Source: a virus. From it: DNA of 21,814 nucleotides. Each line of letters opens with the position of its first letter. The stretch's first letter is position 1. The stretch is taken from positions 1 to 21,814 of the IMG/VR virus record IMGVR_UViG_3300002144_000351, one strand, 5' to 3'. A program made the translations under genes and the position numbers. Shown here one piece after another: positions 1,231 to 15,826 of the stretch. The notes beneath the pieces are model-generated. The model was given only the letters and a program-made list of their open reading frames with translations. It searched no databases and had not been told where the DNA came from.

Positions 1231-4200
1231 TTAAATTGTTCTATATTGTGTTGTCCATACTGTAGAATTAGAACTTGCAGGGGTTGTACTCAACGCCAGA
1301 TTCGATCCTGAGATCGCCACTGATAATACGCCAGTTGCTGTCCCTAAAAATGCTTGTCCGTAGACAGAGAAGTCAACTGTTGACCCGTCTGTTACTGCTA
1401 GAACTGTTGCTACACCATATTTTGAACCAGTAGAGTCAATAGATTTTACCATAAATTCTACACCATTAAGTCCTGAAACAGGGAACTCAGCGATTACTTC
1501 ACTACTAGTGGCAGTTGTAGTTACAGATTCTGCCGCAATAGTTGATATTGCACTTGCGCCAATGTTAACTGCACCTGCTATATTAGCATCTCCACTAGAA
1601 GTGATAGATGTTAAAGTACCAACAGATGTGATGTTTGGTTGTGCCGCTGTATATACTGTACCTGAGACTAGTGCGTTTGCCACTTGTCCAGAGACATTAG
1701 CGCCTGCTACAGAGTTTGCTGTAGTTGCAAAAGCAACTGCTCCAGTTACGTTAGCACCGACTACATTAGATAGTCCGCCGCCGTCGCCTGAGAAGAGACC
1801 TGTGTTTGCTGTGAAAGCTGGTGCTGTTACAGTACCACTGATTCCTGCTGTTCCTGCTACTTCAAGTCCTGTCGCTGTTATTATAGCAACGTTGCCTACT
1901 GAGTTAACAGACATTGTGATGTTGCCATCTGCTGTTGCGATGTCTACATTAGATGTTCCGTTAGAAATACCTGATAGATTCAATCCGACAATGTTACCTG
2001 CCGCGATGTTTGAGATACCATAACCGTCACCGTTAAAGATGCCTGCTGTAGTATCAATGTTTCCTGCTGTAGTTAAGTTGCCACCAGACACATTGCCTGT
2101 TGCTGTAACTACGCCTGCTGTAGTGATGTTGCCACCAGATACGTTACCTGTTGCTGAGACAAGACCTACTGTAGTTAGATTTCCACCAATTACATTGCCT
2201 GTTACTTCTACAACACCACCTGATGTTAAATTAGCACCAGATACGTTACCAGTTGCGTCTACTACGCCTGCTGTAGTGATGTTTCCGCCAGATACGTTAC
2301 CTGTTGCTGAAACAGTGCCGCCTGTAGATAAGTTACCACTGCTTGTGTTACCAGTTACAGTTAATGATGTTAATGTACCAACTGATGTGACGTTTGGTTG
2401 CGCCGCTGTTGTTAATGTGCCTGTTAATAATGAAGCACCGATAGTACCTGCGTTAGCATAAACATTGCCGCCGAGAATATTACCAGTTGCTGTTATGATT
2501 CCGACAGTAGTTAAGTTGCCACCTGCTACGTTTCCAGTTGCTGTAAGACTTGTACCAGTTGCCGCTCCGATATTTGGAGTAGTTAACTGAGCAGAAGTTT
2601 TAACAACTACGTTTCCACCTGAAATCGCTGTTGTTAAGTTATCAACGTTTACAGAGAACTCAGTGCCTGTTAATGTAAGACCTGCACCTGCTGTGAATGA
2701 ACCAGCACCTGAGAATTGTACCCAAGTAACGTCAGATGTACCGACAGTTGTTACTGGATCCGTCATTACCCAACCAGTGTCATTATAAGTTGTGCCTTGT
2801 TGAACAAAACAGAAGTCACCACCAGCCATTTCAGTTGGAGTGTCAAAGTCTGTTGCTCTAGTTAGAACAGTTGAACTTGTGTAGACATAGATACCATTGT
2901 TTGGTAGATTAGCGCCTGTTTCGTCTTTAATGATAATACGATCATTAACTGTTAGTGTAATACCATCAATTGCTGTTAAAGCAACTGTAGTTGTTAATGT
3001 TGCTCCGACGCCTGCTGTACCGTTGTCATATGTTACAGTACCAGTTGACATAGCCGCATATGTACCTGTTGATGCCGCTACTGCCGGTGCTTGAATAGAA
3101 AGACCTTGTGCTACGTCATCTACGTATTGTTTTGTTGCCGCATCTGTTGATGCTGAAGGAGCTCCGAGTGATTCAATTCTGAAACCACCAACGTGAACTT
3201 GTCCAGTTCCTGTAGGTCTGATTTCAACATACTGATCTGTTGAGCCTGCTGTTAATGTTAAGTTACCACCAGCATCTGCTGTTAATTGTGATGATACGAC
3301 TGAACCGAATGTTGCTATGCCGTTTGCATTAAGAGTACCTGTAACGTTTGCGCCAGTGCCTGTAATAACTACAGTTGTGTTGCCTGCTGATACTAAATCA
3401 ACGTTGCCGTTGTTGTTAACGGTAATGTTTGAAGTACCATCTATTAATGTACCTGTAAAGAATGATGCTGAAACTAAGTTTCCACCTGATACGTTACCGA
3501 AAGTACCGTTACCAGTTGCTGAAACAAGACCTGCTGTAGTGATGTTTCCACCAGATACGTTACCAGTTGCAGATACGACACCTACAGTAGTGATGTTTCC
3601 ACCAATTACATTGCCTGTTACTTCTACAACACCACCTGATGTTAAATTAGCACCAGATACGTTGCCAGTTGCGTCTACGACTCCACCAGTAGTGATGTTG
3701 CCGCCAGATACGTTACCTGTTGCTGAAACAAGTCCTACAGTAGTAAGATTTCCACCGATTACATTGCCTGTTACTTCTACAACACCACCTGATGTTAAGT
3801 TGCCACCAGATACGTTACCTGTTGCTGAAACTACACCGCTTGTGTTTAAATTCGCACCAGATAAATTACCTGTAAACGAACCTGTACCTGTTGCAACAAT
3901 TCCAGAATCTGTGATATTTGCTGTCAGGATGCCGTTAACATTAAGGTTGATATTTCCATTAACGAGTGGGATAGAAACATTAGATGTTCCGTTTGCTATA
4001 CCTGATGAATCGATTCCTGATAAGAATGCGCCATTGCCATAAAAATATGATGCTGTAATGTTACCTGATGTAACAACTTGTCCTGTTCCGTTTGGAGTAA
4101 GAATGATGTTAGCATTAGTATCTTGACCAGTAACTGTTTGATCACTGATTACGAGATTACCGATTTGAGTTCCGTCTGGTAAACTAGTTACTCCAGTTAA

Positions 4201-8575: not shown

Positions 8576-8583
8576 TATTTATG
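8576..8583 (-). promoter_or_regulatory. Possible T4-type late promoter (CATAAATA) for the fibre block
   Basis: The minus strand reads CATAAATA, seven of eight matches to TATAAATA, 28 bases upstream of ATG 8548. It lies in the only divergent intergenic gap of the window, where a promoter for the fibre genes is needed. A palindrome ATTATATAAT at 8584-8593 sits next to it and gives TATAAT on both strands. Confidence 0.5.
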
Positions 8584-8608: not shown

Positions 8609-8632
8609 AAAAAGCACTAAGGTGTGCTTTTT
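8609..8632. terminator. Perfect 9-bp hairpin with A/T tracts, probable bidirectional terminator
   Basis: AAAAAGCAC, loop TAAGGT, GTGCTTTTT. On either strand the stem ends in a run of five T. On the minus strand it would stop read-through from the accessory cassette before the fibre promoter. On the plus strand it precedes the ATG at 8652, so a promoter upstream of it would be attenuated. The GC core is only four pairs, so efficiency may be modest. Confidence 0.55.
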
Positions 8633-8651
8633 AATAAATATATGTATGATT

Positions 8652-9014
8652 ATGACACAACCCAGTAGGCCTCTATGTTCTCATTGCAAATTTACATTGT
8701 CAAAACCCAATGGAAAGAGTAAACATGGGTTTCAAAAGTGGCACAAATACTGTGTAGATTGTGCTAAAGCTATGTATAGCAAAAGATTCAAGCACATATT
8801 AAACAAGAAGATGTTATGTGAGGAGTGCGGGTTTATACCACATGATAAAATTCAAATAGATTTGGTATATAAAGACGGTAATGCCATTAACAAGAGCAAA
8901 ACTAACTTAATTACGTTGTGTGCTAATTGTGCTAGGCTTTACAACAAAAAAACAAGAAAAGTTAAAAAATCGATTATTGATCTTCCAGTAGATTCAGATA
9001 TGAGAATTAGTTAA
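8652..9014 (+). CDS. Small zinc-binding protein with degenerate HNH fold (120 residues)
   Basis: This is the only gene on the plus strand. It has four CxxC pairs: C9/C12, C34/C37, C56/C59 and C90/C93. The second half (CEECGFIPHD, IDLVYKDGN, NLITLCANC) follows an HNH endonuclease outline. However, the His expected after the Asp is Leu71 and the final His expected after the last CxxC is Ala94, so nuclease activity is doubtful. A DNA- or RNA-binding or regulatory role is possible but not shown. I chose ATG 8652; in-frame ATGs also exist at 8646 and 8595, but the 8595 start would put the hairpin at 8609-8632 inside the gene and would add sequence unlike the family. No clear Shine-Dalgarno site precedes any of the three. 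Its TAA overlaps the end of the convergent gene by eight bases. Similar small CxxC proteins are common in marine phages. Confidence 0.7.
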   Translation: MTQPSRPLCSHCKFTLSKPNGKSKHGFQKWHKYCVDCAKAMYSKRFKHILNKKMLCEECGFIPHDKIQIDLVYKDGNAINKSKTNLITLCANCARLYNKKTRKVKKSIIDLPVDSDMRIS

Positions 9015-9732
9015 TAGCAATTTCGTTTATTTTGTTGTACCAATCATTATAGTAAGTAGCGAGTTTTTCTCTGTCGTATCCTTTAATACCTAATATATCA
9101 TACATTTCTTTGATTGCATCTAATGTTTCAGTTTCAGATTCGTACTTTCTTACATCAAACTCGTAGACTACATTAGGAAGTGATCTCATTTCTTTTAAAT
9201 TTTCTTCATAGTCAGCTAAACGCTCATAGAAAACACTAATCTTTCGATCTTTACTTGCTCTTTTCTCTACATAGTCATGTGGATGAGTGAACAATATAAT
9301 ATTAGCATTCTTCCAAATCTTTTTAATTTCAATGACTTCTGGATTAAAGTGTGATGCTATAAAGAATTTGTAATCACCGTATGATACATCTTTAACATAT
9401 TTGTGGTATGTTATTCCTCTCCAAGGGTTGATATAATCTTTCTTGGCAAAACCAAAAAATTTATTATCAGTTATCAAAAGATCATTCCAAAAATCACCTT
9501 TGTTTATTTTAGATAACTCACCAGTTAAGTAATTTAATTTATCATCTGGAGAAAACTCACCTCTTAGTTGGGCTTCAGTCATTTCTTTGTGCCCGAATAA
9601 CCCATGATCAGATAGGCTCAAACAATTAGCCATAAATTTTCCACCAGAGTAATTATGATACCAAATAATAGTTAAATTATCAGTATCTAAATTACAATCC
9701 TCAGGCTTGACTCTAAGAATTTTTTTAGACAA
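9007..9732 (-). CDS. Sulfotransferase-like (P-loop type) protein, tentative (241 residues)
   Basis: Near the N-terminus a beta strand leads into IIWYHNYSGGKFMANCLSLS (22-41). The SGGK at 29-32 looks like the phosphosulfate-binding loop of sulfotransferase-like proteins. NIILFTHPHDYVEKR (144-158) could be the central strand and following helix. The C-terminus (LDAIKEMYDILGI, then LATYYNDWYNKI) has the helical ending usual in phage sulfotransferase-like proteins. Substrate unknown. Identification is by motif pattern only and could be wrong. The frame has a TAA at 9738-9736, and the only usable start before the conserved motif is TTG 9732. That codon overlaps the upstream stop by eight bases, so translation is probably coupled. 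No membrane segment is seen. It is co-transcribed with the gene ending at 9725. Confidence 0.6.
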   Translation of the reverse strand: MSKKILRVKPEDCNLDTDNLTIIWYHNYSGGKFMANCLSLSDHGLFGHKEMTEAQLRGEFSPDDKLNYLTGELSKINKGDFWNDLLITDNKFFGFAKKDYINPWRGITYHKYVKDVSYGDYKFFIASHFNPEVIEIKKIWKNANIILFTHPHDYVEKRASKDRKISVFYERLADYEENLKEMRSLPNVVYEFDVRKYESETETLDAIKEMYDILGIKGYDREKLATYYNDWYNKINEIAIN

Positions 9733-10684
9733 GTTTTATGTTCTCGCCATCTTCTCCCAAGTCTTCGTTACCGTCTGAATTCAAGTCAACTAATGACTGT
9801 TGTAAATCTTTATATGTTTCTGCTTCAGCATCTTCAACAACAGGAGGATTTATTAAGGGAACAACATCAGGATCAACTTCAAATCCTGGATTGTCAATAG
9901 TTCCTACTTCACCTACGATCTCATTCACAGAGATGTTGAGTGGTATAGTTGTTGCTCTTTCTTTCTTCTTTTCAGCAACTTCATCATCGTATTCTTCCCA
10001 AATGCCTTGTTCATTTAGATACTCTTCAGTGTACTTGCTGAATGGGTCATGCCATTTCATGTTCATGTAACCAACCATTGCGTGATAGCCTTTGCCTGTC
10101 GATTCTGCATAATCGTAATCCATTTCTAATTCTTCTTTTTTGTAATAAACATTTTCTATTTGTTCCCAGTATGGAGTTTCTACTAGAGTATATGCAAATT
10201 CATCCATGTCTATATCTTCGCCTTCTGTTTCAACAAACCATACACCAAAGCTACCTTTCTCGGCACTATGGAATACTAAGACTGGCTTGTAGTCAGTTAG
10301 ATCGTCTGGTTTGCTATTATCAACATATGCTTCTCTGCCGTGCAACTGATGTGGGTCTAATACAACTTCGTCTTCATAATTATGATACAAGTAATCATCA
10401 CTGCCATCAGCAGGAACTTCAGTTATAATAAATCTACTGTCTGCGTATGCACTGTTTGTGTGTTCAATTTCATCGCATTCGTTCCAAGCATAAAAGTTTT
10501 CTTTAATTAGCGGGATGCCTTCCACTTCTGGCTCATCGCCCCATTCTAACTTTTGTAGATGATCTATTAATTCACCTTCATCGTCTTGTTCAAGCCAATA
10601 ATCTACAAAGTCGGCATTTACTTCACCGATAGTTAATTCTCCGCCGTATCTACCTGCTTCAATTCTAAATTTTCTTTTCGCCAT
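9725..10684 (-). CDS. Acidic conserved phage protein of unknown function (319 residues)
   Basis: The start is ATG 10684 with AGGAG seven bases upstream. The N-terminus FRIEAGRYGGELTIGEV followed by FVDYW is a conserved opening that I associate with hypothetical proteins of cyanophage-like T4 relatives. The rest is strongly acidic and rich in aromatic residues (for example LVFHSAEKGSFGVWFVET near 135-152). It has a lysine-rich patch near 238-243 and an acidic tail of probable low structure. No catalytic motif, signal peptide or membrane segment is seen. It is the first gene behind a perfect sigma70-type promoter, and its stop overlaps the next start by eight bases. The independent promoter suggests expression outside the late programme; function unknown. 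Confidence 0.75.
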   Translation of the reverse strand: MAKRKFRIEAGRYGGELTIGEVNADFVDYWLEQDDEGELIDHLQKLEWGDEPEVEGIPLIKENFYAWNECDEIEHTNSAYADSRFIITEVPADGSDDYLYHNYEDEVVLDPHQLHGREAYVDNSKPDDLTDYKPVLVFHSAEKGSFGVWFVETEGEDIDMDEFAYTLVETPYWEQIENVYYKKEELEMDYDYAESTGKGYHAMVGYMNMKWHDPFSKYTEEYLNEQGIWEEYDDEVAEKKKERATTIPLNISVNEIVGEVGTIDNPGFEVDPDVVPLINPPVVEDAEAETYKDLQQSLVDLNSDGNEDLGEDGENIKLV

Positions 10685-10717
10685 AATAATCTCCTAACTA
10701 TAATAGTATTTAATATC

Positions 10718-10746
10718 ATTATACTACCATAAAAACAATTTGTCAA
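10718..10746 (-). promoter_or_regulatory. Consensus sigma70-type promoter
   Basis: On the minus strand the -35 box TTGACA (10746-10741), a 17-base spacer and the -10 box TATAAT (10723-10718) match the bacterial consensus at all 12 positions with the ideal spacing. ATG 10684 follows 33 bases after the -10 box, with AGGAG between. The upstream terminator ends 14 bases before the -35 box, so the promoter starts a separate transcription unit. Confidence 0.88.
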
Positions 10747-10760
10747 GCCTTTTTGTACCC

Positions 10761-10788
10761 AAAAAAAAGCCTCTTTTAAAGAGGCTTT
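10761..10788 (-). terminator. Rho-independent terminator of the capsid operon
   Basis: On the minus strand the stem AAAGCCTCTTT / AAAGAGGCTTT, with a GCCTC/GAGGC core, is followed by eight T (10768-10761). It lies 38 bases after the gp23 stop codon and directly before the promoter at 10746. Confidence 0.9.
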
Positions 10789-14971: not shown

Positions 14972-15826
14972 TTAGTCGAAAAACTTTTTAGTCTCTAAAA
15001 AGGGCTTTAAAATGTCATTAAAGTATTTTTCTTGGCCTTCTGCGTTAGGGTGGACATCTATTTCTGACACAGTTAAACCAAATGGTTTCACATATTCATG
15101 TATCGCTGGCTTAACTAGATTGGGTGTATCTAATTGCTTATATAGATAATTAATTATTTCATGGTCTTTGTTTTGCTCAATATCTGCATATGTATGTTTC
15201 ATATAGTATTGTTGATAAAACGGAATGCCGTGTAATTTACATAGATTTTGTAACATAAGCATATTTTCTAAAGCAACATGCAATGAATTGATGTTATACT
15301 TATCATAGTTTCTGTCAGTGACAGGCTCGGTAAGCATTATATAATCATTAATAAATTTTGGTTCTCTGTGATTCCATGCAGAGTGATACCATCCACCATT
15401 TGGATTATAGTTTACATGGTAGTGACCGTTTTCATTATCAAACTCTAAGATTTCAACGCCTTCTTTACTATTTTTAAGGTTACAAAATTGTACATGCCAA
15501 CAATCTCCTCCGCTTGTACCCCAATGTTCTTTGATATCGTTAATATAATCTTTGTTAGTTATGTACCAAGTCTTGCGATCATTGCCACTCCATGAAACAA
15601 GCACAGCAATTTCATCAGGAGCAAAGCCTTCATCTAAGGCATCCATGATAGCATTTGTAGTTTTCTTTTGAATGAGTTCTTGGCCTTGATGACCCATGCC
15701 TCTATGATCAAACGTAACGTTAGGGTCTATTGATTTTGTATGTGCTTCTAAATGATGAGGCCAAGTCCATGGCGTATAAGCATCTCCAAAACTACAACCA
15801 GCAGTAATAATATGTTTTATTTTCAT
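14972..15826 (-). CDS. SGNH/GDSL-type hydrolase in the head module (284 residues)
   Basis: All main SGNH blocks are visible: GCSFGD with nucleophile Ser12, a glycine-containing block II (RGMGHQGQE, 42-50), SWSGND with Asn82, and DVHPNAEGQ with Asp257 and His259. The family hydrolyses esters, often acetyl groups on carbohydrates; the substrate here is unknown. No signal peptide or membrane segment is seen. The ATG at 15826 directly follows the gp20 stop (TAAATG), without a Shine-Dalgarno site, so translation is probably coupled to gp20. T4 has no such gene between 20 and 67, so it is an insertion in the head operon. It may act on host surface glycans or modify a virion component; nothing in the sequence decides this. 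Confidence 0.85.
   Translation of the reverse strand: MKIKHIITAGCSFGDAYTPWTWPHHLEAHTKSIDPNVTFDHRGMGHQGQELIQKKTTNAIMDALDEGFAPDEIAVLVSWSGNDRKTWYITNKDYINDIKEHWGTSGGDCWHVQFCNLKNSKEGVEILEFDNENGHYHVNYNPNGGWYHSAWNHREPKFINDYIMLTEPVTDRNYDKYNINSLHVALENMLMLQNLCKLHGIPFYQQYYMKHTYADIEQNKDHEIINYLYKQLDTPNLVKPAIHEYVKPFGLTVSEIDVHPNAEGQEKYFNDILKPFLETKKFFD

Follow-up and report, generated by a model that had tools for sequence, protein, structure and literature searches.

T4 carries segD, a gene of homing-endonuclease type that sits between genes 23 and 24, antisense and directly after gp23 (PMC2988022); segD is of the GIY-YIG type and free-standing, without a recognised promoter of its own. Two models describe how T4 homing endonuclease genes are regulated: an operator that overlaps the late promoter, as in I-TevI autorepression, or a hairpin that hides the ribosome-binding site (RBS) and is left out of late transcripts (PMC2988022). 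Homing-endonuclease islands and boundary nucleases (PMC10448857) place a nuclease-type gene beside an essential gene, with variable cargo and adjoining recombination breakpoints. Morons of lambdoid phages are ORFs that carry a promoter of their own and separate genes which adjoin in relatives; in a study of T4-like phages, most novel ORFs did not appear moronic (PMC1524935).

The locus described here resembles each of these systems in part. Its convergent gene is like segD in type and in its antisense position directly after gp23, but it is HNH-derived and predicted to be dead, it has its own late box, and it faces a two-gene cassette. Like a lambdoid moron, the cassette has its own promoter and lies between genes that adjoin in relatives, whereas it is core to its clade rather than recent and has no conserved terminator of its own. 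As in the islands, a nuclease-type gene, variable cargo and recombination breakpoints are found beside an essential gene; here, in contrast, the resident nuclease-type protein is predicted to be dead and the fixed cargo is non-nuclease. Finally, a conserved dyad stands by a late promoter upstream of an endonuclease-type gene, as in I-TevI autorepression or RBS-hiding hairpins, but with fixed spacing and mostly without a stable stem. The reading we favour, at somewhat better than even probability, is that the cassette is a two-gene accessory operon in a cargo slot, with tandem promoters and host-acting products, and that a dead HNH regulator stands at its far end.

The locus and its relatives

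The window, the whole stretch of DNA analysed, is a 21.8-kb viral contig with T4-like gene order: gp20, gp21, gp22 and gp23 on the minus strand, then fibre-like genes. The named phages closest to its gp23 are the giant T4-like phages Vibrio 2.275.O, PA5oct, GAP32 and CBB (65-69%), and contigs bearing relatives reach 303 kb; the group consists of uncultured, probably very large T4-like phages of bacteria. The relatives compared are all metagenome contigs, and many loci are near-duplicates. The features of the locus are as follows.

8576-8582, minus strand: T4-type late box ATAAATA of the fibre-like gene p508, from the motif list, divergent from the box of the convergent gene
8609-8632, either strand: dyad AAAAAG-N12-CTTTTT, a stable hairpin in the window
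8634-8640, plus strand: T4-type late box ATAAATA, 5 nt before the start codon of the convergent gene
8646-9014, plus strand: convergent gene for an HNH-derived zinc protein of 122 aa, predicted from the family alignment to be nuclease-dead
9007-9732, minus strand: p241, ORF of 241 aa with a TTG start, encoding a sulfotransferase-like P-loop protein
9725-10684, minus strand: p319, ORF of 319 aa from a phage-only family, function unassigned
10707-10713, minus strand: T4-type late box TTAAATA, between the -10 box and p319
10718-10746, minus strand: sigma70 promoter TTGACA-17-TATAAT, matching the consensus at 12/12 positions
10766-10788, minus strand: gp23 intrinsic terminator from the terminator scan, a 10-pair stem followed by a T-run

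The p319 and p241 ORFs share 8 nt, and p241 in turn shares 8 nt with the convergent gene. Because these opposing ORFs overlap, the transcripts of p241 and the convergent gene should overlap as well; in the window there is no terminator between the two genes, and the hairpin at 8609 lies beyond the convergent gene. As a separate observation, the head operon appears to have a second accessory position: p284 (14972-15826, minus strand), between gp20 and p75, has an SGNH-hydrolase-like start by eye and no family match, and is absent from several relatives, such as L205-L209.

Promoters and timing of the cassette

The gp23 terminator folds at -12.2 kcal/mol (z -3.0), and a hairpin with a T-run also follows gp23 in the relatives inspected; a terminator has been predicted for gene 23 in six T4-like genomes (PMC1524935). 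This terminator should separate p319-p241 from the capsid operon. Exactly 14 bases after the end of its T-run comes the -35 box (TTGACA, 10746-10741), followed by a 17-nt spacer and the -10 box (TATAAT, 10723-10718), all on the minus strand. Terminator, gap and promoter are thus as an earlier, sequence-only reading of this DNA had placed them, and so are the two overlapping genes that meet a gene on the opposite strand.

This is the single 12/12 sigma70 site in the window, where dinucleotide shuffles of the window give an expectation of 0.03; for the shuffled 145-nt intergenic region between gp23 and p319, the probability of such a site is ~5e-5. With sequences identical around the gp23 end removed, a promoter matching at least 11/12 positions with the exact 17-nt spacer is present in 24 of the 26 distinct cassette-bearing relatives and in 1 of the 91 cassette-free ones, counts that do not equal independent events. 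The spacer letters between the two boxes diverge freely among cassette loci, from AATTGTTTTTATGGTAG to ATACTAACCAAAGGTTG. Even in L005, where ~790 extra bases lie between gp23 and p319, a 10/12 match still stands immediately upstream of p319. The shuffles together with this conservation (24/26 against 1/91) rule out a chance origin, and we judge the promoter to be real because it is conserved with the cassette while its spacer varies. Judging from that conservation, the host sigma70 RNA polymerase should initiate here early or throughout infection.

In eight relatives (L004, L084, L087, L118, L126, L129, L131 and L144), the 17-nt spacer contains an ACC-N3-GGT palindrome whose flanks show compensating changes; placed as it is between -35 and -10, it resembles a repressor operator. 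The spacer of the window's own promoter has no such palindrome.

A second promoter element accompanies the first. Every cassette locus has TAAATA between gp23 and p319, in most cases immediately ahead of the -35 box or immediately behind the -10 box. Across 283 ORFs of relatives, it peaks at two distances ahead of start codons, 10-14 nt (37 occurrences) and 25-34 nt (94 occurrences), and it is almost absent within genes (5 hits in internal controls). The late sigma factor of T4, gp55, has a single weak match in 10 of 12 large genomes (E 4e-8 to 3e-3). T4-type late promoters are marked by a TATAAATA-like box at a set distance before late genes in phages with gp55, and this combination is what we find here; from its position and the weak gp55 match, we infer that TAAATA is the late promoter box. 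Since it accompanies the sigma70 promoter in every cassette locus, we read the pair as a host-type and a late promoter in tandem, in which the late box should contribute late transcription of p319-p241. Tandem early and late expression therefore seems likelier than early expression only. The proposal that these genes are made early or continuously was right to rely on the sigma70 promoter, which is conserved; taken to mean early and not late, it is too strong. The late box also weighs against the reading we favour, since the sigma70 promoter may not be the principal one.

In many late genes TAAATA stands just 10-14 nt ahead of the ATG, which would leave a near-zero leader if transcription began there. 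Leaderless late mRNAs are thus possible in this phage group (window positions 8634-8648; cargo genes of relatives).

The cargo slot after gp23 and the cassette proteins

In relatives, gp23 and the convergent gene enclose a slot that is either empty (56-97 bp) or filled with up to 7.8 kb. Besides the cassette, the slot can hold endonucleases of GIY-YIG and HNH type, a protein resembling desaturases, a possible radical-SAM enzyme and fibre-like genes, names given for recognisable features of the predicted proteins by inspection, not by a library scan. The 7.8-kb slot of L184 contains an HNH-endonuclease-like gene and an opposite-strand block of fibre-like genes.

Within the clade of the window, p319-p241 is always in the slot: with L135 left out as a possibly chimeric contig, 25 of 25 gp23 sequences fall into a single clade (support 1.0). 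This single cassette clade was hidden in a midpoint-rooted tree and in a tree that included L135. Near position 3200, close to the gp23 end, the identity of L135 to L136 jumps from 75-83% to 100%, which may reflect very recent recombination or a chimeric assembly; given the possible chimera, we set L135 aside as proof of cassette transfer to a distant gp23 lineage.

These data separate two parts of the claim that the cassette is a moron. It had been described as an accessory unit typical of morons, and the comparison bears out the accessory part: the cassette is inserted between genes that adjoin in relatives, wider relatives have nothing or other cargo in its slot, and it has its own conserved sigma70 promoter. 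A recent moron-type insert, peculiar to this phage, is ruled out, as every close relative carries both genes here; judged from gene order and the gp23 tree, the cassette is clade-core. The sequence-only reading had named in advance the presence of the genes at the same place in all relatives as evidence against itself; they are so placed, but inside the clade only. We found neither distinct composition nor recent acquisition. The GC content of the cassette is 30-38%, compared with 43-47% for gp23 and the fibre genes, and the gp22 region is equally low (35-37%).

The convergent gene had been counted as part of the same unit. Instead, it is a distinct gene that has been at the site for longer, and it is conserved in relatives that lack the cassette. 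Along the window, p319-p241 is mostly 80-92% identical to L003 and, over most of its length, 63-75% identical to L146, whereas for the convergent gene L146 is the closer relative (81-90% against 65-70%). The gene trees agree with this split profile: the two cassette genes do not share the recombination history of the convergent gene. On both grounds we rejected the idea that the cassette and the HNH gene form one mobile unit.

The contents of the slot also raise the possibility that it is mainly a homing-endonuclease island, where p319-p241 hitch-hiked with a then-active endonuclease and inherited its tandem promoters. Indeed, many relatives hold endonuclease-like genes in the slot, and in more distant relatives some of these lie behind TTGACT- or TTGACC-type promoters with a late box; the slot of PA5oct contains an annotated Hef-like homing endonuclease; phage nuclease genes mark exchange boundaries (PMC10448857); and the convergent gene is itself HNH-derived. 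But the cassette retains no active nuclease, and the convergent gene is kept in its absence and has recombined separately. We consider this history unlikely as a rival; it would account for the origin of the cassette rather than its present function, and it is compatible with the host-acting operon that we favour.

Both cassette proteins are under purifying selection, with median dN/dS of 0.16 for p319 and 0.08 for p241. The p319 model (pLDDT 78) has no match in a fold search of the PDB, and its structure matches in BFVD are exclusively uncharacterised phage proteins. There are 255 p319 relatives in viral contigs; among the best 80 of these, 34 have no gp23 linkage in the stretch examined. For most of the 34, the operon includes a UvsW-like helicase and APRT; many of these operons also have a nucleoside phosphorylase-like gene and ThyX, and some have MetK. 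The relatives outside the slot are thus found in operons of helicase, nucleotide and SAM metabolism, not among structural genes, and in a 340-kb contig p319 is ~54 kb from gp23. In L351, L352, L362 and L363, the operon comprises helicase, MetK, APRT and a NadR-like kinase/nucleotidyltransferase fusion. We had considered the kinase downstream of some p319 relatives as an APS kinase, which would tie p319 to sulfate activation; APS-kinase profiles match it weakly, and its additional nucleotidyltransferase domain makes it more NadR-type, so this candidate was dropped.

The p241 model (pLDDT 82) is confident apart from one loop region. Its ten best PDB neighbours are all sulfotransferases, among them the tyrosylprotein sulfotransferases (3ap3), with TM-scores of 0.40-0.47 (best E 5.8e-4, TM 0.47) and other P-loop kinases close behind. 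p241 matches no sulfotransferase sequence family in Pfam, PHROG or NCBIfam. From the model, p241 is probably a sulfotransferase-like P-loop transferase; because the TM-scores stay below 0.5, our naming stops at sulfotransferase-like P-loop protein. It is present in 46 viral-contig loci, and in those checked for context it adjoins p319 after gp23; no relatives turned up when bacterial and archaeal genomes were scanned by motif. Neither p319 nor p241 matches anti-phage defence families.

Do these proteins act in the virion after all? They could be clade-specific late or virion-associated proteins, for example for capsid decoration or modification, with the sigma70 promoter minor to the late box. 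The cassette lies between head and fibre genes, it is fixed beside gp23 across the whole clade, a constancy that would also fit a core late function, and it has a late box in every intergenic region. Yet the p319 relatives in metabolic operons far from gp23 argue against this, as do the resemblance of the p241 model to enzymes and the near-perfect sigma70 promoter, kept only with these genes. We consider a virion role quite improbable, in agreement with the original proposal that the genes do not serve virion assembly; in the host-acting operon that we favour, p319 and p241 would most likely act on the metabolism or surface of the infected cell.

The convergent gene and the dyad upstream of it

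The convergent protein has a weak PHROG match to HNH endonucleases, and its family retains the frame of that fold without the catalytic residues. In the readable rows of the alignment, the zinc Cys pairs (eight Cys) and the central Asn are invariant, preserving the zinc frame of the HNH fold. The general-base His, on the other hand, is absent in 64 of 64 readable members, replaced by Tyr, Phe or Leu, and the last His of the HNH motif is missing in 63 of 64. In relatives of the protein from other phages the DVDH...CANCH motifs are intact; two such relatives are encoded directly after a major capsid gene. The description of the gene as HNH-like is therefore right by descent, although the catalytic residues are missing. 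With a median dN/dS of 0.11 indicating purifying selection, the gene is predicted to be a catalytically dead descendant of an HNH homing endonuclease, kept by selection.

Alternatively, the protein might still be a nuclease whose active site is rearranged rather than dead; the invariant Asn and zinc cysteines, the strong selection and the gene's own late box speak for it. We regard this as very unlikely, since both histidines are lost throughout nearly the entire family while the relatives in other phages keep them.

Just upstream of the convergent gene is the dyad at 8609-8632. It had been noted as a second terminator-like hairpin at the far end of the unit, and in the window the hairpin is real, with both strands folding at -10 to -11 kcal/mol; it is not conserved as a stable stem, however, and marks no conserved end of a unit. 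The N12 spacing is found in 54 of 65 upstream regions, and AAAG, CTTT and the 12-nt spacing stay fixed across relatives, while in most of them the inner 12 nt are unpaired (mean z -0.5 on the minus strand and 0.1 on the plus strand). In most relatives the dyad is followed by the late box and, ~5 nt later, by the ATG; TAAATA lies 7 to 11 nt before the start of the convergent gene in most and at ~-40, ahead of the dyad, in a few. A collection-wide scan for the dyad was uninformative, the motif being too low in complexity. We also discarded the idea that the likeness of this hairpin to the gp23 terminator marks a former homing site, as few relatives with the HNH gene share the N12 spacing there.

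The element could be a true terminator that ends the p319-p241 transcript ahead of the fibre genes. Its stability of -10 to -11 kcal/mol with a T-tract, seen in the window, L005 and L146, would suit such a role, and the minus strand pairs somewhat better than the plus strand (mean -3.65 kcal/mol, against -2.44 kcal/mol). A true terminator would, however, conserve pairing, and here it is the outer letters and their spacing that are conserved; because the inner 12 nt mostly fail to pair, a conserved terminator at this position is doubtful, though less so than the rivals weighed above.

Of the two T4 models, we favour the operator for the dyad, because the zinc frame is retained without the nuclease. 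The convergent protein would most likely bind DNA and regulate the short stretch with divergent promoters just upstream of its own gene, in keeping with the dead HNH regulator of the favoured reading: a descendant at the far end of the slot that has lost catalysis, whose zinc frame is under selection and which likely binds DNA locally. A more specific version is tentative, and we give it clearly less than an even chance: a homing endonuclease that invaded the gp23 boundary may have lost its nuclease and been domesticated as a zinc-finger regulator that binds the dyad between divergent late promoters, bordering a cargo slot which in one clade holds a fixed host-promoter operon of two uncharacterised, cell-modifying proteins.

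The locus is a testable case of how T4-like phages may house host-acting genes within the late structural region, by a design in which an insertion slot at a set position behind the capsid gene would come with tandem promoters, one of host consensus type and one late. The locus also brings forward p319 and p241 as well-conserved phage proteins without functional annotation. And with a large, predicted nuclease-dead HNH family under selection where T4 keeps segD, it makes the fate of dead phage homing endonucleases accessible experimentally.
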